Source of the DNA: a virus
IMG/VR virus record: IMGVR_UViG_3300033995_000685
Location: 1 to 22,297 of that record
DNA: 22,297 nucleotides
Reading direction: 5' to 3' (one strand)
Below the pieces are notes generated by a model. It saw only the letters and a program-made list of their open reading frames with translations. It made no database searches and was not told the DNA's origin. Numbering within the stretch: the first letter of the stretch is position 1; the number at the start of each line of letters is the position of its first letter. A program made the translations under genes and the position numbers. This document shows, piece after piece, positions 10,457 to 21,620 of this stretch.

Positions 10457-11176
10457 ATGGACAAAGAATTTATCAAACGTGCATTACATGTAACATCTTT
10501 TAACTTGTCTGCTTCGGACTTTGAGAGTATAAAGCATAAAAAAGAGATTCAATATATTTTTAATATGCACTTTTTCCCAAAGTTTGATCTAGATCAAACT
10601 ATTGATGCTGTTGATATGAATAAGTTGAACAGCATCATCAGCAAACTAAAGAGCGAAGATGCTGCTATGTTTGCCAAAATGCATAATTATAATCTAAAAG
10701 GAGTTGGACCCGGTGAAGTCACACTCTATTTTTTAATCAATTCAGCTCATCTAGGTGGAGGATCATCTGCTGGCGTTGATTTGGTAGCAAGTAATGGCAA
10801 GTTTGAAATTAAGGCTGTTAAGGTCGGCCGTGATGGATATGCATCAGATTTTAAACTTGGTGGTACTACTCCACTATCAGATATCATTATAGCACTGGAT
10901 AATATCCGCACCGAGCATAAGCTTGGTGGTACACGCACTGAGATGTCTGGTTCTATCATGGATCAGATGAAAAAGCTAGCTCCTGATAAATTTGCAGCAG
11001 CTGAGGACAAATTTGCTACCGCTGCTGCTAACTATTTTAAAGGTCATAAGGTTATTTTTATCAATAACAGTCCATCAAATCTTGGTAAGATTGAAGCTAT
11101 TAAAGAAGTCAAGAAATCCGATGTTATCATTGAACGCGTAACGAGTGGAACTATTAAACCAAAAGTAAAATTATAA
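10457..11176 (+). CDS. PD-(D/E)XK-like putative nuclease, 239 aa
   Basis: The middle of the protein has a restriction-endonuclease-like signature: an acidic residue in KGVGPGEVTLYFLI (E87), then AGVDLV with D108, then KFEIKAVK with E117 and K119. D-x8-E-x-K is the classic PD-(D/E)XK spacing, with Gly and hydrophobic strands around it. The N-terminal 80 residues are helical and charged; the C-terminal part is mixed. AAAGGAG precedes the ATG by 7 bases. In the late block it could trim or process DNA or act as a virion-associated nuclease. The catalytic call rests on motif spacing alone. Similar proteins occur beside the DUF6267 gene in T4-like phages, as far as I recall. Confidence 0.65.
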   Translation: MDKEFIKRALHVTSFNLSASDFESIKHKKEIQYIFNMHFFPKFDLDQTIDAVDMNKLNSIISKLKSEDAAMFAKMHNYNLKGVGPGEVTLYFLINSAHLGGGSSAGVDLVASNGKFEIKAVKVGRDGYASDFKLGGTTPLSDIIIALDNIRTEHKLGGTRTEMSGSIMDQMKKLAPDKFAAAEDKFATAAANYFKGHKVIFINNSPSNLGKIEAIKEVKKSDVIIERVTSGTIKPKVKL

Positions 11177-11227: not shown

Positions 11228-12586
11228 ATGTACAAATTTAAACAGTTCGTTGTTGAATCTATGGAATCCAATGAAGAAAAACTAACCCATCTAGAACATG
11301 CTGAAGACCACGTCATCAATGCTGGTCATGAAGGGTTTAGTCACGCGTACAATAATCTCATGGATGTGCATAACAAATTACAAGGTAAACGGAACGACAC
11401 AAAGGTGACCATGAAATACGATGGGTCACCTTCTGTCATTTTTGGACGTAACCCAGATAACGGTAAGTTTTTTGTGGCTTCTAAGTCTGCATTCAATAAG
11501 AATCCTAAGATCAACTATACTCCTGAAGATATTGAAGCCAACCACGGTCATGCACCGGGTCTAGTAGCTAAACTCAAGGCGGCTCTATTACACCTTCCTA
11601 AGGTGACTCCTCCACAGGGTGTCTATCAAGGTGACATTATGCACACTCCTGAGGATATCCATTCAGATGGCAATGGTGTATCCTTCACTCCTAATACTAT
11701 CACGTACTCTGCACCTAATGGATCGCCTCAAGCTAATAAGGCGCGTAACTCTAAAATCGGTGTTGCACTACATACTGCCTATAATGGAGACTCACTTGCC
11801 GGTATGAAGGCTGAGTATGCTCCTAATCTAGATCACTTCAATAAGCATTCAGATGTGCATATGATCTCTACTCAACACCCTCTGGATAAGATTCAATATA
11901 CACCAAAGCAACAAGCTGAGTTCAAGAAGCATATCGATGCTGCATCTAGAACATTTGCAACTACTCCAAGAGAAGCCCATGATGCTGTGTCACCTCATAT
12001 GATGGCAGTAAAGACCTATATCAATAGTACAGTACGTGATGGATCTAAACCATCAACTCAAGGTCTATTGGCTTTTATGAATGCTCAAAAGTCTAAAGCT
12101 ATCTTATCAGTTAAGACTCCAGCTTCTCAACAAAAGAAATCTGATGAGCATAATGCTAACATTGCACACGTTGCAGCAACTGCTCATCACTTTGATAATG
12201 TACTCAAGATGCACCACCATCTACAAAAGGCTAAAGATGTTCTGACTAATGCACTATCATCACAGTCAGAATTTAATCATACTATCAAAGGTAAGCCTGC
12301 TAAACCTGAAGGATTCGTTGTTGTAAGAGGTAATCGTCCTACTAAGTTTGTTGATCGTGCAGAATTCTCTAGAGCTAACTTTGCACCGCGTGGTGTTACT
12401 GAGACCTATGCTGGTACTGGTATTGGTGGTGGAGCCGTCCGAGGAGCTGGTGCTTCTACTGGAGATGCATCACCTACAGTCATTAATACCTATATTGGTG
12501 CTAATATAGCTGATGCGGATACTCAAGATAATCATCTTAAGCATATTCTCAAGACATTCCATAATAACTATCATGGTAAAAAGTAA
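11228..12586 (+). CDS. DUF6267-type protein with ligase/nucleotidyltransferase-like motifs, 452 aa
   Basis: The sequence fits a T4-like phage family that I recall as DUF6267. It holds ATP-ligase-like motifs in order: KYDGSPS with K63, D65 and G66 (motif I, the lysine that takes AMP), GVYQGDIM at 131-138 (position of motif III), PEGFVVV at 360-366 (motif IV, EGxV) and TKFVDR at 372-377 (motif V). The N-terminus MYKFKQFVVES aligns with the T4 internal-protein capsid-targeting peptide MKTYQEFIAE, so head packaging is possible. Residues 398-412 are Gly-rich. ATG 11228 is chosen over TTG 11222 because CGGAG lies 6 bases before it. It follows a TATAAATA promoter. Substrate and activity are untested. 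Confidence 0.78.
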   Translation: MYKFKQFVVESMESNEEKLTHLEHAEDHVINAGHEGFSHAYNNLMDVHNKLQGKRNDTKVTMKYDGSPSVIFGRNPDNGKFFVASKSAFNKNPKINYTPEDIEANHGHAPGLVAKLKAALLHLPKVTPPQGVYQGDIMHTPEDIHSDGNGVSFTPNTITYSAPNGSPQANKARNSKIGVALHTAYNGDSLAGMKAEYAPNLDHFNKHSDVHMISTQHPLDKIQYTPKQQAEFKKHIDAASRTFATTPREAHDAVSPHMMAVKTYINSTVRDGSKPSTQGLLAFMNAQKSKAILSVKTPASQQKKSDEHNANIAHVAATAHHFDNVLKMHHHLQKAKDVLTNALSSQSEFNHTIKGKPAKPEGFVVVRGNRPTKFVDRAEFSRANFAPRGVTETYAGTGIGGGAVRGAGASTGDASPTVINTYIGANIADADTQDNHLKHILKTFHNNYHGKK

Positions 12587-12738
12587 TGAAAACTATTAAA
12601 CAGATCAGAGAGATGGTCGTCAGAGACGCGTCTGGTAAGAAGATACCAATACATAAAGTGCCTATTCGTATGGCAGATGGTACTATCCAGATGCAATATC
12701 CTGGTAAGAGCAGCAGTTCAGGTGGCGGTGGAGATTAA
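12586..12738 (+). CDS. Small late protein, 50 aa, Gly-rich tail
   Basis: ATG 12586 overlaps the stop of the ligase-like gene as TAATG. The product begins MKTIKQIREMVVRDASGKK and ends SSSSGGGGD. It resembles the 49-residue product at 16777 in having a basic start, then V-x-D-x-SGK, and in following a large late gene with a TAATG overlap, so the two may be paralogs. Function unknown; a small virion or assembly protein is possible. Confidence 0.6.
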   Translation: MKTIKQIREMVVRDASGKKIPIHKVPIRMADGTIQMQYPGKSSSSGGGGD

Positions 12739-12742
12739 TTAA

Positions 12743-12750
12743 TATAAATA
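12743..12750 (+). promoter_or_regulatory. TATAAATA late promoter
   Basis: A perfect T4 late box lies in the 33-base gap between genes, 21 bases before the ATG at 12772. Transcription would start near 12757 and include GGGGTAG as a weak Shine-Dalgarno. Confidence 0.7.
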
Positions 12751-12771
12751 TAAGAAAACACGGGGTAGTCA

Positions 12772-14436
12772 ATGACCAACTTATTAGACAAAATTAAAAA
12801 TAGATTAGAATTCTCTAAGAAGGGTGGCACGACTGCTACCGGTCAACCTATAACCGACATTGATATGACTCCGACCACTAACTCGGTCAGGGAACAAACT
12901 GAGAAGCATGCAGTATTCACCTTCGGTAGGTTTAATCCACCTACACAAGAAGGTCACGGTAAGCTGATCAAGAAGGTTCAAGATACAGCTGCAGCCAAGG
13001 GTGCATCACACACCATCTTTGCATCGCAGTCTCACGATTCAAAGAAGAATCCATTACCCCACTCTGAAAAGATTGGGTTCATGAAGAAGATGTTCCCAGG
13101 TGCCAATATCCATTCTGGTGGTGCAGTAAAGACAGTTCTAGATGCAGCTCGTCATCTTGCAGCCAAGGGTACTACGCACGGTACTCTCGTCGTTGGTTCT
13201 GATCGTGTCGATGAGTTCCACAATCTATTGAGCAAGTACAATAAGCATCCTGACTCACCTGACTATGATCCTACTAAGCACTTCTATATCCCACATCTCA
13301 ATGTAATATCTGCAGGCAATAGAGATCCTGATGCCGAAGGTGCAGAAGGTATGTCTGCATCCAAGTTAAGAGCACACGCCGCATCAGGTAACTTTAAAGC
13401 ATTCGCAGCTGGAACTCATCCATCGATCGCTAAACCTATGTACGATTCAGTCCGTGCGCACATGGGCATCAATGAGCAGTACTTATCACCTGTCGAAAAG
13501 ATGTCACTCAAGATCAGAGCTGGTGCTGAGAAAGAACGTAAGACTGCTCAATCTGCAGCTGCTAAGAAGATAAAGCACGCTCGTAAGATTGATCACGAGA
13601 GTGAGCACTATGCAAAGAAGTACATTACTCCACACGCGCCTGCTACCATGCCATCCAGCATGGCACTGAATCCATACGAAGAGACAAGATATATCATTCC
13701 TAACGTCAGAGATGAAATGGCTCCTGGCGCAAAACCCGTTGATATCGGTTATGATAAAGATCTAGAGTCAAAGGATACTACTAAGCAGTTGAAACGTCGT
13801 CAGGCAATGAAACGATTCAAACAGACTATGGATGAAGATGCATATGATCCTGGTAGTTCAGTTCCTACACCAGTCAACATCATGATTCCTTCTATCAAGA
13901 TCAAGCCAAAGAAGCCTAAGGTTGACTATGATGATGTAGCTACCAATGAAGAAGTCGATAATGAAGGCGGTATGGCCAAGAATGAACTAGAGACTGCAGA
14001 ACGTGGAATCAAAAATATCAAGTCCAAGATCAAGGGCCCTAATGCAAAACTACCTGCATGGGTACAGTCAAAGATCTCTAAAGCATCTGATCATATTGAT
14101 ACAGTATCTGACTATATGTCGGGTGAACATGATCCTGTATCTGAAGGTAAAATTGGTCTATGGGATCGCATCCATGCCAAACGTGAGAGAATCAAGCGTG
14201 GCTCTGGTGAACGTATGCGTAAGCCTGGTTCCGAAGGTGCACCTACTGCCCAAGACTTCAAGGACTCACAGGTCAAAGAAGAGGGTATGTTTGGTGACGT
14301 ATCAATCGGTGATAAACCGACTGCATATCCTAATGTATCCACACCTACACCTTCTGTCGTTGCTAGACCACAACAGCGCCTTAAGAATAAAGGTGCAGTG
14401 AACAACACACCTTATAAAGAACAAGAGCCATCATGA
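12772..14436 (+). CDS. Putative nucleotidyltransferase (cytidylyltransferase-like), 554 aa
   Basis: Residues 45-235 carry the HxGH-superfamily nucleotidyltransferase fold: strand HAVFTFGRFNPPTQEGHGKLI at 46-66 (GRFNPPT and GH are the nucleotide-binding loop), LVVGSDR at 139-145, and GMSASKLR at 193-200, the equivalent of the ISST-x-x-R motif. NMNAT and CoaD enzymes share it, but the exact transfer is unknown. Residues 240-554 are basic, low-complexity and rich in Lys, Pro and Asp, with VKEEGMFGD near 502-510. T4-like phages often carry such proteins in the late region. It follows a TATAAATA box and overlaps the next gene as ATGA. NAD-related or ligation roles are possible given the neighbouring ligase-like gene; this is inference. 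Confidence 0.75.
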   Translation: MTNLLDKIKNRLEFSKKGGTTATGQPITDIDMTPTTNSVREQTEKHAVFTFGRFNPPTQEGHGKLIKKVQDTAAAKGASHTIFASQSHDSKKNPLPHSEKIGFMKKMFPGANIHSGGAVKTVLDAARHLAAKGTTHGTLVVGSDRVDEFHNLLSKYNKHPDSPDYDPTKHFYIPHLNVISAGNRDPDAEGAEGMSASKLRAHAASGNFKAFAAGTHPSIAKPMYDSVRAHMGINEQYLSPVEKMSLKIRAGAEKERKTAQSAAAKKIKHARKIDHESEHYAKKYITPHAPATMPSSMALNPYEETRYIIPNVRDEMAPGAKPVDIGYDKDLESKDTTKQLKRRQAMKRFKQTMDEDAYDPGSSVPTPVNIMIPSIKIKPKKPKVDYDDVATNEEVDNEGGMAKNELETAERGIKNIKSKIKGPNAKLPAWVQSKISKASDHIDTVSDYMSGEHDPVSEGKIGLWDRIHAKRERIKRGSGERMRKPGSEGAPTAQDFKDSQVKEEGMFGDVSIGDKPTAYPNVSTPTPSVVARPQQRLKNKGAVNNTPYKEQEPS

Positions 14437-14726
14437 TAGACTTTAAAACATTCTGTGAATCCAGAGGAGCAGACTCCAAAGGATACTTCAGACCTACTGA
14501 AAAGGGTGCTGGATTAACCTCTAAGGGTGTTGCACACTTTAGAGCAAAGAATCCCGGATCTAAGCTTCAGACAGCAGTAACCGGTAAGGTAGAACCAGGT
14601 TCTAAGGATGCGAAGAGACGTAAATCTTTTTGCGCTAGAATGTCCGGCATGCCTGGACCGATGAAAGACGAAAAGGGTAGACCTACCCGCAAAGCACAAT
14701 CATTAAGAAGATGGAGATGTAGATAA
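14433..14726 (+). CDS. DUF6321-type basic protein, 97 aa
   Basis: The sequence matches a short phage family that I recall as DUF6321: LTSKGVAHFRAKNPGSKLQTAV, then KDAKRRKSFCARMSGMPGPM and GRPTRKAQSLRRWRC. The product is strongly basic, so DNA or RNA binding is likely. The N-terminus MIDFKTFCES aligns with the capsid-targeting peptide pattern M-x-x-F-x-x-F-x-E. It overlaps the nucleotidyltransferase stop (ATGA) and the Dps-like start (TAATG). Two cysteines near the C-terminus (C67 and C96) are notable. Function unknown; a packaged or head-associated DNA-binding protein would fit. Confidence 0.72.
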   Translation: MIDFKTFCESRGADSKGYFRPTEKGAGLTSKGVAHFRAKNPGSKLQTAVTGKVEPGSKDAKRRKSFCARMSGMPGPMKDEKGRPTRKAQSLRRWRCR

Positions 14727-15169
14727 TGGCTATTCTAGGAGATAAACTAAAGAGGGTTCTTGCAGATACATTTTCTATGTACCTCAAGGCACACAACTAT
14801 CATTGGAACATCGAAGGACCTGATTTCTTCGAATACCATTCATTCTTCGGTGAGATTTATGAACAATTACATGATGCAGTAGATCCTATTGCAGAGCATA
14901 TTAGAGCTATCGGTGAATATGCACCTGGTGCGCTATCACGATATAAAGAACTTACTACTATTGAAGATGAACTTGCAGTAGTTCCTGCTCTAGTATCAGT
15001 TCAGCGTCTTCTAGTTGACAATCAAAAGGTCATTGACTCTTTGACGATCGCTTATCGTGAAGCTAATGCTGCTGAAGAGATCGGCCTAGCTAACTTCTTA
15101 CAAGATAGAGTAGATGCACATAAGACTCTAGGATGGAAGCTTAGAGCCTCCATTGCCGGAAAACAATAA
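14726..15169 (+). CDS. dps: Dps-like ferritin (DNA protection during starvation family)
   Basis: Dps proteins form 12-subunit shells that oxidise and store iron and can bind DNA. The conserved patch is KAHNYHWNIEGPDFFEYHSFF at residues 21-41, then AVDPIAEHIRAIG at 51-63. Against E. coli Dps the ferroxidase ligands align as H26 (H51), H38 (H63), D53 (D78) and E57 (E82). The D67 position falls on G42 with E43 next to it, so the site may be altered. The length of 147 is short for Dps because the N-terminal extension is absent. It starts in a TAATG overlap and ends in an AATAAATA box. A late-expressed Dps could protect or condense phage DNA or scavenge iron from host stores; this is inference. 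Confidence 0.85.
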   Translation: MAILGDKLKRVLADTFSMYLKAHNYHWNIEGPDFFEYHSFFGEIYEQLHDAVDPIAEHIRAIGEYAPGALSRYKELTTIEDELAVVPALVSVQRLLVDNQKVIDSLTIAYREANAAEEIGLANFLQDRVDAHKTLGWKLRASIAGKQ

Positions 15170-15202: not shown

Positions 15203-16777
15203 ATGCAAGTATATCACGAAGAATTCGGTGAGGGTCAAATCCTTGCTTCAACAGAACAGTTTGATGAAGCTGGCAATATCACTTCAGCCGACGTGATGTT
15301 CGAACATGGTGTAGAGATGGGCATGTCTGCAGATGATCTACAAGAATTATCAAAAGAGACCATGGGTTCTTATGTAAAAGCTAAGAAGGCTGCTATCCCT
15401 TATCAAGCAACTGCTCCTGGAATTAAGCTAGCTCAAAAGAAGCTGGCTAAGAATGAAGAAGTTGAACTTGATGAAACAATGGATAAACACTTTACAAAAC
15501 AATCCCCTAAGATGCAAGATGCAATCAACCTTCATCTTCGCAGGGGCAAAGACTATGCTGGTGCAGTAGAAGCTGCTAAGAAGCATGTAAAAGAAGAAGT
15601 TGAACTTGATGAAGGTTATTCTTTAGGGGATGCTAAGTATCCTAAAGAATCAGAAGGTCACGCTATGCATGATGTACATTATAAGCCTATGATCGGTGCA
15701 AAAAGAAAAGTAGGACATGTTGTTGCTTATCCAATTAAAGGTGGACGTGATATAGAATATGCTTCTGGAAGCAATGCTAAGAATGATCCACATTTTACAA
15801 GTGGACATAAAACTGCAGAAGCTGCATTTAAAGAATTGAAGAATCAAAAACCTCATCAAGAAGTTAAAGAAGAATCTGAGCTTGATGAAGGTAAATCTAA
15901 ATCTACTCTTGAAAAGCATTTTTCAGGCAATCCCCAAGTAATGTTTACAGTACCAAAAGGAAAACCGAAACCCGCATTTACCGAGCCAAAATCAAAGTCA
16001 ATGAAAGAAGAAAAGCAGCACATCGAAGTAATCGATGCATCTGGCCAAAAGAGAAAAGTTCCTGTTGATGCTGATAAGGCATTTGCTGCAGTTGCTCACT
16101 ATCGTAAGCAGCCTGGTATCAAGAGTGCACGTATCGTTTCTGAAACTGTTGAAGTCGAAGAAGCCGTTGAAGTCGAGACCATTAAGCATCCTATCGGACA
16201 ACGTCCTAAGGGACCAGGCTGGGTACTTAAGTCATCCGGTGAACAAACTGGTAAAGATCATAACGTCTGGCAGCGTAAGTTTAAGCAAGTAGGTGAAGCT
16301 GCTGAAGTCTGCACTTTAGGTAAAGAATCAACTGATAAGACTGCAACTACAGTAGCTCCTACCAAGAAGTTTGGTAAGCCTAAGCCTACTGCCACAGGTG
16401 AAGTCGCCGAGGAACTATCAGATAAGCAAAAGAAGCATATTGATCAAAACAAGAACGGTAAGATCGATGCTGATGACTTTAAAAAGCTACGTGGTGAAGA
16501 TGATGATACTCCTCCATGGACCGGTTCATCTAAGAAGGTTCCTGCAGGTTATGTTCCCTCTAAGAGTCATCGTCAAAAGCTAGCTCGCAGCGGTATACCT
16601 GAGTCAGTTGAAACTGTGACTGAAGAGACTAAGGATACACCACATAATGTAACTCCTGCTTCTGCTGATCTTCGTAACGTCGCTGTAGAGAACACGGTCC
16701 GTCAGATCATGGCACAGAATATTGATCTACGTCAAGAAGCAAAAGAGCGTGACTTCAACAGTCGTAACAATAAATAA
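15203..16777 (+). CDS. Modular acidic protein with repeated ELDE linkers and an EF-hand-like loop, 524 aa
   Basis: The N-terminal 50 residues (MQVYHEEFGEGQILASTEQF and on) form a beta-rich domain seen in T4-like phage proteins. Then modules are separated by acidic linkers: EEVELDE at 85-91, EEVELDE at 131-137 and EESELDE at 223-229. Later acidic runs are IVSETVEVEEAVEVE (311-325) and VAEELSDKQKK. Residues 414-425 (DQNKNGKIDADD) match an EF-hand calcium loop. LDE fits the L-x-E pattern cut by T4 prohead protease gp21, so it may be a scaffold or internal protein cleaved during head maturation (inference). TTAGGAG lies 6 bases before the ATG. The stop overlaps the next ATG (TAATG). No enzyme motif is seen. 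Confidence 0.75.
   Translation: MQVYHEEFGEGQILASTEQFDEAGNITSADVMFEHGVEMGMSADDLQELSKETMGSYVKAKKAAIPYQATAPGIKLAQKKLAKNEEVELDETMDKHFTKQSPKMQDAINLHLRRGKDYAGAVEAAKKHVKEEVELDEGYSLGDAKYPKESEGHAMHDVHYKPMIGAKRKVGHVVAYPIKGGRDIEYASGSNAKNDPHFTSGHKTAEAAFKELKNQKPHQEVKEESELDEGKSKSTLEKHFSGNPQVMFTVPKGKPKPAFTEPKSKSMKEEKQHIEVIDASGQKRKVPVDADKAFAAVAHYRKQPGIKSARIVSETVEVEEAVEVETIKHPIGQRPKGPGWVLKSSGEQTGKDHNVWQRKFKQVGEAAEVCTLGKESTDKTATTVAPTKKFGKPKPTATGEVAEELSDKQKKHIDQNKNGKIDADDFKKLRGEDDDTPPWTGSSKKVPAGYVPSKSHRQKLARSGIPESVETVTEETKDTPHNVTPASADLRNVAVENTVRQIMAQNIDLRQEAKERDFNSRNNK
15455..15889 (+). repeat. Three copies of a coding repeat for EE(V/S)ELDE
   Basis: A 21-base sequence beginning GAAGAAGTTGAACTT is present identically at 15455-15475 and 15593-15613, and with a few changes at 15869-15889. 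The copies are in frame with the 15203 gene and mark the borders between its modules. DNA-level identity suggests module duplication or exchange rather than chance convergence. Confidence 0.7.
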
Positions 16778-18249: not shown

Positions 18250-18642
18250 ATGATTGAAAAACTTGACGAAACGAACTTCTTGCTTTATTGTGCGAAGTAC
18301 TACGATAACCCGCAGTGCTTCGACACTCTAGAATTTTATGATGATCTAAAGAGAATTAAGTACATCAAAAGACTTTTTAATAAGTATATTGAGAGTGGTG
18401 ACCTTAAGGAACGATTGATTTTAAACCATATCATAGTACTGTGTAACGTATTCGGCCCGGTTCACGCCAGCCGAATACTTTTTTTTAAGTTAAAGAGTTT
18501 TTATCCACAGCTGAAACCATTCCTTGAGATTCTGGGTTATATGCCAGAAAAAATAAATAATATTGGATTTATACCTTTTGAAGTTAACAGTGAAGACGTG
18601 TTGTCTGATCCGTACATAGAAGAAGTATTGAGGAACATCTAA
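18250..18642 (+). CDS. Conserved T4-like phage protein (DUF7207-like), 130 aa
   Basis: It begins MIEKLDETNFLLYCAKYYDN, then LKRIKYIKRLFNKY and LKERLILNHIIVL, and holds VFGPVHASRILFFKL in the middle. I recall this arrangement from a conserved protein of T4-like cyanophages (DUF7207 from memory). It is helical and soluble, with no catalytic motif I recognise. The coding DNA includes an intrinsic-terminator-like hairpin followed by eight T (18448-18486) and an AATAAATA at 18552. The stop overlaps the next ATG (TAATG). Function unknown. Confidence 0.78.
   Translation: MIEKLDETNFLLYCAKYYDNPQCFDTLEFYDDLKRIKYIKRLFNKYIESGDLKERLILNHIIVLCNVFGPVHASRILFFKLKSFYPQLKPFLEILGYMPEKINNIGFIPFEVNSEDVLSDPYIEEVLRNI
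18448..18486 (+). terminator. Intrinsic-terminator-like hairpin inside a coding gene
   Basis: GTATTCGG (18448-18455) pairs perfectly with CCGAATAC (18471-18478), extended by a C-G pair, and is followed at once by eight T (18479-18486). This is the classic shape of a Rho-independent terminator on the + strand, but it lies at about codons 67-79 of the 18250 gene. Confidence 0.6.
18552..18559 (+). promoter_or_regulatory. AATAAATA late-promoter-like box inside a gene
   Basis: A near-consensus late box lies about 65 bases after the internal terminator-like hairpin and 83 bases before the ATG at 18642. It could restart transcription for the downstream genes, but AT-rich coding sequence makes chance matches likely. 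Confidence 0.25.
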
Positions 18643-19574
18643 TGACTAAATCGATTAATGAAGAAATGGTAGAAGCTCCACATGGAGATCCACACTATCA
18701 TGCCAATGTACATCGCGAATTAATCAATAGAGCGTCTGGTCCTCAAAAAGAAATTTCTCTTGGTGCGCATATCTATCGTCATCTTTCAACGCACCCAGAT
18801 GAATCTCATATCACATCTCATTACGAAAAAACAATATATCCTATTTTAAAGAAACACGGATTTCCTAGAGAAGATCACGGACCAGTAGGTCCTGGACATC
18901 CACGACATGACGAACATCTTAGATTCCATCGTGAGTTTTTGCCTGATGTTCATAAGGCGTGGAGAGAGATGGACAAAAATAATCCTCATACCGCAAAACT
19001 ACTCGCTATTGCAGATAAAGAAGCCAAACGAAAAATAACTGAAAGAGAATCTGAAAAAGAAGCTAAACGACAAAAAGGAATAGAAGCTAATAAAAAACGA
19101 ATGAACGAAGAATCAATCGACGAAGCTGCTAAACCTGGCGCAGAGCACTTTAAGACTATTGCCATGGGCAATGGCGAACACGAAGTTCATTGGAAAGGTA
19201 AAAGGACACCTTATACCATCTTCAATGGTTCTATGGGTGCTTCTGGATTTGGTAATAACATTTACGGTATTCATCATAAAAAAACTGGTGTAACTCGTGC
19301 TAGTGGTACTCTACAACAAATGAAGAGTGTTATAATGAAGGCTTTACATAACGATGAGTCTAAAGCTTCTTTAGAAGAATCCAAGATGCAATCATTTGGT
19401 CAGTTCATGGAAGATGGTGTCGGTGGAGCTGGCGGTGTTGGTTCTGGTGTCGGTGGCCTTGGTAGTGTCGTCGATAAAGCAGGCAATGTCCAATCACCTC
19501 CTGTATTCCCAGCTGCTCAGAAGCGTATCGTGAAAAAGGGTACTCCAATGTTTAGAAGGAAGTTAGATGTTTAA
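18642..19574 (+). CDS. His-rich modular protein, 310 aa
   Basis: Residues 1-116 contain 17 histidines (for example PHGDPHYH and GHPRHDEHLRFH), which suggests metal binding. Residues 125-156 form a charged helix, then SIDEAAKPG at 159-166 gives an I-x-E site of the T4 prohead-protease type. A second domain at about 167-235 follows (HEVHWKGKRTPYTIFNGS). MQSFGQFMED at 249-258 matches the capsid-targeting pattern M-x-x-F-x-x-F-x-E but is internal. The last 50 residues are Gly-rich, then basic (MFRRKLDV). The start overlaps the upstream stop (TAATG), and the end overlaps the spanin gene by 8 bases. Probably a head or internal virion protein; this is inference. Confidence 0.68.
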   Translation: MTKSINEEMVEAPHGDPHYHANVHRELINRASGPQKEISLGAHIYRHLSTHPDESHITSHYEKTIYPILKKHGFPREDHGPVGPGHPRHDEHLRFHREFLPDVHKAWREMDKNNPHTAKLLAIADKEAKRKITERESEKEAKRQKGIEANKKRMNEESIDEAAKPGAEHFKTIAMGNGEHEVHWKGKRTPYTIFNGSMGASGFGNNIYGIHHKKTGVTRASGTLQQMKSVIMKALHNDESKASLEESKMQSFGQFMEDGVGGAGGVGSGVGGLGSVVDKAGNVQSPPVFPAAQKRIVKKGTPMFRRKLDV

Positions 19575-20618: not shown

Positions 20619-21620
20619 ATGAGTATTTGGGTAGACATCAAGTTCACTAATCTAGTATCTGCCAAACTGGACAGGTTCAAAGTAAAGACACACAATCCAT
20701 ATTTGGCTAACTGTAGATGTCCAATCTGTGGTGACAGTCAAAAGAATAAGTTGAAAGCACGCGGCTTCTTCTTTCAGAAGCAGGACAATCTTATTTATAA
20801 GTGCCATAACTGTGGTGCAGGTAGGAACATAGCATCGTTCCTTAGAGATCTAGATCCTGTACTCTATAAAGAATATATCGCAGAGTCATACTTCGATAAA
20901 GACACTCCAAAAGAAGAATTGGCAGTAATTAAGACACCTAGCTATATGAAGTCCGGATCTCCACTACTTAAGATCAAGAAGATCTCTCAGCTAGCATTCG
21001 ATCATCCAGCAAAGCAATACGTCATCGATCGTGGTATTCCTAATGAGTACCATGCAAAGCTATTCTATTGTTCTAAGTTTGCTGCGTGGACCAATACGAT
21101 GATTCCAAGGAAGTTAAAGACTGATGGTGATACACCTAGACTGATTATCCCGTTCATCGATAAGGATGGGCAGTTGTTTGGCTATCAAGGTAGAAGCTTT
21201 GATAAGGCATCTAAGCTCAGGTACATCACCATCATGTTGGAAGATCGACCTAAGATCTTTGGTATGGATACTGTTAATCTCAATAAGACACACTATATCA
21301 TAGAAGGTCCTATCGACTCTATGTTCATTCCTAATGCCATCGCCATGGCCGGAGCGGATCTAGATAGGAGCATCATTAATGAACACTCCGTATTTGTATA
21401 TGATAATGAACCTAGAAATCCTGAGATCATCAGGAGAATGAAGAAAGTCGTCGATGCAGGCCATAAGATCGTAATCTGGCCCGAAAATTTTATATGGAAA
21501 GATATAAATGATATGATTCTAGGAAATATAAATAGAAAGGCAGTAATTGACATGATCGTAGATAACACTTATAGTGGTCTTACGGCATTAGTCAAACTGA
21601 ACGGTTGGAAAAAGATCTAG
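20619..21620 (+). CDS. 61: DNA primase, T4 gp61-like
   Basis: Primase makes RNA primers for lagging-strand synthesis with a helicase partner (gp41 in T4). The N-terminal zinc finger has C34 and C37 (CRCPICGDS) and C62 and C65 (YKCHNCGAG). The TOPRIM core shows YIIEGPIDSMFI at 226-237, with E229 and D233, and VYDNEPRN at 260-267 with D262. A basic-aromatic stretch, RLIIPFIDKDGQLFGYQGRS, at 174-193 fits the T4 gp61 family. Length (333) matches T4 gp61 (342). It has its own GTGTAC promoter. The 3' end contains a TATAAATA box that may serve gp13. The helicase gene is not in this window. Confidence 0.93.
   Translation: MSIWVDIKFTNLVSAKLDRFKVKTHNPYLANCRCPICGDSQKNKLKARGFFFQKQDNLIYKCHNCGAGRNIASFLRDLDPVLYKEYIAESYFDKDTPKEELAVIKTPSYMKSGSPLLKIKKISQLAFDHPAKQYVIDRGIPNEYHAKLFYCSKFAAWTNTMIPRKLKTDGDTPRLIIPFIDKDGQLFGYQGRSFDKASKLRYITIMLEDRPKIFGMDTVNLNKTHYIIEGPIDSMFIPNAIAMAGADLDRSIINEHSVFVYDNEPRNPEIIRRMKKVVDAGHKIVIWPENFIWKDINDMILGNINRKAVIDMIVDNTYSGLTALVKLNGWKKI
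21527..21534 (+). promoter_or_regulatory. TATAAATA late promoter inside the primase gene
   Basis: A perfect late box lies within the primase coding sequence about 95 bases before the gp13 ATG (21630). The surrounding 60 bases are more AT-rich than the rest of the gene. It would let gp13 be expressed late although the gene before it is early. Confidence 0.5.

Follow-up and report, generated by a model that had tools for sequence, protein, structure and literature searches.

The window analysed here is a 22,297-nucleotide fragment, positions 1 to 22,297 of IMG/VR virus record IMGVR_UViG_3300033995_000685. An earlier note on this DNA had pointed out three short peptides, two at gene starts and one inside a gene, that resemble the capsid-targeting peptide of the internal proteins of phage T4. 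Translation placed all three where the note had put them: MYKFKQFVVE at 11228, MIDFKTFCES at 14433 and MQSFGQFMED at 19386-19415. The peptide is referred to below as the tag. The genes around the two gene-start peptides are the following:

11228..12586, plus strand: DUF6267 protein, 452 residues, with a predicted RNA-ligase-like covalent nucleotidyltransferase fold (Pfam PF19782, fold, motifs)
11228..11257, plus strand: capsid-targeting-like peptide MYKFKQFVVE (MYKFKQFVVESM) with F4, F7, V8 and E10 (translation, homologs, motif statistics)
12772..14436, plus strand: predicted nucleotidyltransferase (cytidylyltransferase/NMNAT-like), N-terminal tag absent here (phrog_3041, phrog_395)
14433..14726, plus strand: DUF6321 protein, 97 residues, basic, with an imperfect tag (PF19846, tagged homologs)
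14433..14462, plus strand: capsid-targeting-like peptide MIDFKTFCES (MIDFKTFCESRG) with E9 and S10, processing site doubtful (translation, homolog alignment)

The tag at gene starts and on homologs

In T4, this peptide sends proteins to the virus head, from which they are injected into bacteria. Ten residues of the T4 IPIII propeptide are enough for head targeting. Residues 4 and 7 of the T4 peptide act in targeting and residues 8 and 10 in processing, and aspartate at position 10 blocks processing while leaving targeting intact (PMC9026906). The peptide of the 11228 gene has all of the T4 features, namely an aromatic residue at 4, F7, a hydrophobic residue at 8 and E10. The fit claimed for it by the earlier note also went beyond chance when gene starts were compared with internal methionines. 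The strict motif searched, M.{1,3}[FYL]..[FY][LIVM].E, was found at 74 of 1,074 unique predicted gene starts in 81 loci and at 0 of 3,788 internal methionines. In 270 related sequences, whose loci overlap and whose counts are not independent, it was found at 253 of 4,489 predicted gene starts and 18 of 16,793 internal methionines, an excess of about fifty-fold.

The strictly tagged genes form 28 sequence clusters, a few of which look accidental (e.g. hydrophobic or shadow open reading frames (ORFs)). The aromatic residue or leucine stands exactly at position 4, the T4 register, in 24 of the 28. Lysine at position 2, which the motif did not impose, occurs in 12 of these 24 clusters compared to 11% of other genes, one example of the unforced positions also leaning towards the T4 peptide. 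When T4 itself was used as a control, the motif matched the annotated starts of only ipII, ipIII and gp61.1; it missed IPI and Alt and, therefore, under-counts. In all, the peptide is shared by some two dozen families that are unrelated to one another, and most have it in precisely the T4 register.

The 11228 protein belongs to DUF6267 (PF19782, E 3.2e-100, 336.5 bits against a cut-off of 27). A survey of homolog N-termini, which the earlier note had offered as its own refutation test, showed the pattern to be conserved, with nearly all DUF6267 proteins outside cyanophages tagged. All but a few among the best 80 IMG/VR homologs start with the tag in varied wording (MTTFKDFLAEE, MNYLTFITEA, MLKFRGFLVEQ), as do the DUF6267 proteins of phages C48C1, DLP_6 and Melnitz. 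The homolog search used six seeds, one being MYKFKQFV; most homologs differ at this stretch and were, therefore, found through other seeds. The nearest non-identical relative (G006, 68%) has a degenerate start, MERLYLAES.

The 12772 protein matches phrog_3041 (E 3.3e-51) and phrog_395 (E 2.2e-37) and contains the nucleotide-binding motif GRFNPPTQEGH; profile and motif predict a member of the cytidylyltransferase/NMNAT family. Cyanophage homologs of it bear the tag, whereas the window copy is untagged. The DUF6267 protein of Synechococcus-type phages is untagged (MAKNTHLEHLED), and the adjoining nucleotidyltransferase is tagged (MRFRQFIIEA). Among 161 loci with both genes, the tag is on the nucleotidyltransferase only in 82, on DUF6267 only in 69, on both in 2, on neither in 3 and unclear in 5; the 151 one-tag loci fall into few lineages and are not 151 independent cases. 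Separately, the annotated start of the C48C1 cytidyltransferase (L091 16688-18031) looks wrong, and an upstream GTG gives a tagged protein (VIKNFSQYLLEEEREVYFTFGRMNPPT).

The 14433 protein belongs to DUF6321 (PF19846, E 1.4e-21, 77.4 bits against a cut-off of 28.5). The match claimed for MIDFKTFCE stood in part: the peptide aligns without gaps to the E10-bearing DUF6321 homologs MIGFKEFITERG and MIRFKEFILEARG, but its glutamate is at position 9, with serine at 10, and it misses the strict motif. The same domain was seen both tagged and untagged (MKSFKEFLNES-SAWQRKEG and MAKTP-AWTRKEG), the tag resembling a plug-in. The idea that the DUF6321 tag is confined to T4-like neighbourhoods was set aside as only suggestive, with a T4-like marker nearby in 6 of 9 tagged and 16 of 71 untagged loci.

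A structure model of the DUF6267 protein (mean predicted local distance difference test score, pLDDT, 85) has a helix over the first eight residues, a low-confidence linker to about residue 20 and then a folded domain, a predicted layout as expected of a removable tag. When the model was re-aligned to PDB chains, all 50 listed matches were RNA or DNA ligases, the best being Naegleria RNA ligase (Z 9.4, 182 residues, 3.5 Å). A plain Foldseek search of the model against the PDB gave no significant match (best E 0.24), and P0001, P0002 and the DUF6267 alignment, searched by sequence against solved structures, gave no credible one. Motif I (K63-x-D65-G66) and motif IV (E361-G362, assigned by eye) are invariant in 41 diverse sequences; in the motif V region (K373-x-V375-D-R377), K373 is invariant and the second lysine is replaced by valine. 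We predict from this fold and its invariant catalytic lysine that DUF6267 is RNA-ligase-like, with nucleotidyl transfer as its putative activity. It has in common with the RNA ligases (Naegleria RNA ligase, TbREL1, T4 Rnl2, Rnl1) the covalent nucleotidyltransferase fold and the motif I lysine, but differs in a helical insertion of about 120 residues between motifs, an altered motif V and a sequence that is not detectably similar.

Tagged proteins in the virions of relatives

Published virion proteomes of relatives, obtained by mass spectrometry, were compared with the distribution of the tag. The non-structural virion proteins of S-CREM2 are an S-adenosylmethionine (SAM) hydrolase, an APH/ChoK-like kinase, a cytidylyltransferase, a Cas9-like nuclease and two endolysins (PMC10665884, Table 3). 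The SAM hydrolase (MKDFDSFLEE), the kinase (MKRFDAFLTEE) and the cytidylyltransferase (MKNFSSFLTEA) are tagged, and in the Cas9-like protein the peptide LRFASFMAEA is displaced by 16 residues, at residues 17-26. Two detected hypothetical proteins are also tagged, gp13 (MKDLHSFLTEQ) and, in a looser form, gp136 (MQTFSMFFSED). The tag is absent from the two virion endolysins and from all named structural proteins checked. Unique peptides numbered 19 for the tagged SAM hydrolase and 21 for the tagged kinase (PMC10665884).

The nucleotidyltransferase is tagged and was detected in virions in four phages (S-CREM2, S-SZBM1, S-SM1 and S-SCSM1, where it is an NMNAT), and it is untagged and was reported undetected in one, S-PM2 (PMC3037559). 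The S-SM1 protein (T4-GC190; PMC3037559) begins MKKFSAFLNEA. In S-SZBM1 (PMC9146016), the DUF6267 protein (gene 141) is untagged and was not detected. The four phages with the virion enzyme have the same gene cluster as the window and a homologous nucleotidyltransferase; they differ in that the window's tag is on the neighbouring DUF6267 and not on the nucleotidyltransferase. The annotated starts of three whole genomes gave 10 strictly tagged genes, and 6 of them were detected compared to 1.9 expected (P 0.0045).

Head machinery of the T4 type was found in relatives. G001 and G006 encode a Peptidase_S77 prohead protease (PF03420, E 7.5e-35 and 6.9e-32), and the major capsid protein of G006 is 63% identical to that of S-SZBM1.

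Two further features of these proteins were noted. A stretch of about 45 residues after the tag is common to the S-SM1 and S-SCSM1 nucleotidyltransferases and the S-CREM2 kinase (L179 33257-34420, L183 38820-40049, L084 10579-12846); the stretch also occurs in PHROG 3561, the match of the S-CREM2 Cas9-like protein, and we read it as a longer sorting module. Tag-like FxxF sequences also occur at C-termini: S-SCSM1_93 (L183 41627-41836) ends RTFKEFLEYIE, and cassette proteins of L010-L052 end MSFNRFMKK or MTFSRFMRK.

Proposed packaging in the head and competing explanations

Homolog conservation, the sharing of the peptide by unrelated proteins, the prohead protease and capsid protein of a relative and the virion proteomes strongly support, at the level of the family, the capsid-targeting-like reading put forward in the earlier note. 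We consider it likely that the peptide is a T4-type capsid-targeting sequence and that its bearers are docked, cut, kept in the head and injected, with DUF6267 the clearest cargo here. While the head assembles, the tagged protein would attach to the scaffold core through F4 and F7 of its peptide, and a gp21-type prohead protease would then cut behind the glutamate at position 10 or close to it. The enzyme released in this way, in the window most clearly the putative RNA-ligase-like, adenylyl-transferring DUF6267 protein, would then stay with the DNA in the head and enter the host with the genome. For the window proteins, we infer docking, cleavage and injection. DUF6267 is well supported as likely cargo; DUF6321 and the gp61.1-like cassette described below are probable further cargo, with weaker support.

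The T4 proteins IPI, IPII, IPIII and Alt also carry the N-terminal peptide on otherwise unrelated proteins, and relatives of the window have the T4-type protease. T4's internal proteins are small basic inhibitors, whereas the tagged cargo here consists of enzymes (ligase-like, nucleotidyltransferase, phosphatase, SAM hydrolase, kinase, Cas9-like). Also unlike T4, the tag here moves between neighbouring genes, and packaging in the window is predicted from sequence. Overall, the system is best read as T4-type targeting that carries enzymes as a new kind of cargo.

Several points weigh against it. The proteome enrichment is modest, and S-SZBM1 or S-SCSM1 taken singly gave no significant enrichment of tagged genes. 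Tagged proteins of 55 to 165 residues went undetected (two in S-SZBM1, one in S-SCSM1 and one in S-CREM2), for which their small size may be the cause. The tag is not the sole route, since several members of the cluster that lack it are among the proteins flagged in S-SCSM1 virions. The proteome authors did not exclude carry-over of abundant proteins in cesium chloride (CsCl), and all the virion evidence comes from relatives and none from the window phage. The DUF6321 peptide of the window lacks E10. Finally, the protease, scaffold and capsid genes are absent from the 22,297-nucleotide window because the fragment is too short.

Some of these points would also be accounted for if the peptide had another use and the tagged proteins were detected in virions as contaminants because of their abundance. 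One such use would be an amphipathic helix that binds, in the cell, a partner of host or phage origin common to the tagged proteins. According to the proteome authors, soluble proteins can persist in CsCl-purified stocks, and the tagged proteins missing from virions fit this view as well. We regard it as quite unlikely: the peptide agrees with the T4 signal in register and in the residues with a demonstrated part in targeting (PMC9026906), the SAM hydrolase and kinase were found with many unique peptides, and most untagged enzymes are not listed. Far less probable still is a resemblance due to chance or to inheritance within each family without function. Ten-residue motifs are easily found and MQSFGQFMED, as an internal peptide, is by itself no improbable find, but the excess at gene starts over internal methionines and the plug-in behaviour of the tag before DUF6321 both speak against this. 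Chance as the explanation of the peptide was rejected on the basis of the internal-methionine control.

Two other alternatives concern the cargo. DUF6267 and the nucleotidyltransferase may form a complex in which the tagged protein is targeted and its partner rides along, the pair being the packaged unit. Exactly one of the two is tagged in 151 of the 161 loci, and PHROG family 455 has both domains in a single protein; the one-tag pattern rests on few lineages, however, and in S-SZBM1 the tagged nucleotidyltransferase was detected without the untagged DUF6267. We treat this pairing as possible but hold it with less than even confidence. A non-enzymatic head or core protein that kept the ligase fold would fit the valine in place of the second motif V lysine and an activity that is putative, but K63, D65, G66, E361, G362 and K373 are invariant in the 41 sequences, and this seems unlikely to us.

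The earlier note had called the system an undescribed virion-delivered module. This was too broad, since the virion nucleotidyltransferases of cyanophages and the T4 internal proteins were already known; the peptide link and the DUF6267 cargo are undescribed in the open-access literature searched. A search for a capsid-targeting sequence in cyanophages found none in that literature (subscription journals were not covered). The accessible portions of the papers on virion NMNAT or cytidylyltransferase name no packaging signal, and they report virion enzymes without saying how they enter and without excluding contamination. What appears to be new, judging from sequence, is an N-terminal peptide linking the virion nucleotidyltransferases to the T4 internal proteins, with DUF6267 as putative tagged cargo.

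A shared N-terminal address would explain how enzymes enter cyanophage virions and would provide a sequence test for time-zero-injected proteins among the unknown proteins of abundant aquatic phages. We think it fairly probable that T4-like phages of aquatic habitats generally use the T4 capsid-targeting sequence as an address code that can be exchanged between proteins. It would mark a set of injected enzymes and make injected proteins predictable from the genome sequence alone. This putative set would comprise the RNA-ligase-like enzyme, the nucleotidyltransferase, a polynucleotide-kinase-like phosphatase (the L080 phosphatase is tagged, and its PHROG match is named polynucleotide kinase), the SAM hydrolase, the kinase and the Cas9-like protein. 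T4 internal proteins block host restriction enzymes (PMC12373910), and the tagged set, therefore, narrows down the likely first-response factors in counter-defence or take-over. The combination of ligase, phosphatase and nucleotidyltransferase may point to the repair of nucleic-acid ends, or else to NAD metabolism, as infection begins; that the role is the mending of nucleic-acid ends in the first minutes is a tentative guess.

The probable gp61.1-like unit and neighbouring genes

The third peptide lies inside a longer gene upstream of a primase:

18642..19574, plus strand: 310-residue protein whose final 62 residues resemble a stand-alone gp61.1-like gene of relatives (translation, locus comparison)
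19386..19571, plus strand: gp61.1-like cassette of MQSFGQFMED, a glycine-rich stretch and a basic tail, in frame within the 18642 ORF, with a possible internal start (position, order, length, composition)
19386-19415, plus strand: internal peptide MQSFGQFMED (MQSFGQFMEDGV) within the 18642-19574 ORF (translation)
20619..21620, plus strand: gp61-type primase, the syntenic anchor downstream of the cassette (ORF list, gene order of relatives)

The earlier note's claim that MQSFGQFMED also fits was only partly borne out. The peptide is unremarkable by itself, as a loose form of the motif follows 23 of the 3,788 internal methionines in the 81 loci, but it is position-matched to the starts of stand-alone genes in two relatives, L218 and L222. 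There, a gene of 62 or 61 residues stands directly behind the counterpart of the gene that precedes the 18642 ORF; it begins MKTFKQFMLEDGG or MKSFKQFILEDGM, followed by a glycine-rich stretch and a basic tail. By eye, the C-terminal 62 residues of the 18642 protein agree with these genes and T4 gp61.1 in position, order, length and composition. The link rests on these features because the 62 residues had no BLAST match in the collected loci; a search of viral contigs with the whole protein (P0005) found no relative. The annotated primases of relatives stand in the same order, and T4 61.1 adjoins primase gene 61.

Both T4 gp61.1 and the window cassette have a tag-like start (MKTFKEFIKED in T4), a glycine/serine-rich middle, a basic lysine run and a primase gene nearby. 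Unlike gp61.1, the window unit is the C-terminal part of a longer ORF, and the likeness is compositional and positional. We take the internal peptide as the probable mark of a gp61.1-like unit, which in the window is either part of a fusion or has a translation start of its own. T4 gp61.1 itself (54 residues; AF158101 18966-19130, L090) may be an unrecognised internal protein.

Other genes near the tagged ones were also noted. Upstream of DUF6267, 10457-11176 encodes a 239-residue protein with no Pfam or PHROG match that is conserved in at least four relatives. A small ORF at 12587-12739 (MKTIKQIREMVVRDASGKKIPIHKVPIRMADG) has a degenerate tag and looks by eye like a tagged 55-residue protein of L039 (MKTFKHFVSEQHVDHKGNPITVQDIRLIAG). 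Immediately 3' of the DUF6321 gene, 14726-15169 encodes an untagged Dps-like ferritin (PF00210, E 5.7e-19). The 15203-16777 protein contains 7 [LIV]xE[AGST] sites, which resemble prohead-protease sites, compared to 2.1 in shuffles (P 0.003). It also repeats EEVELDE, and large proteins of relatives have similar repeats; from its sequence it is possibly a multiply cleaved core protein.

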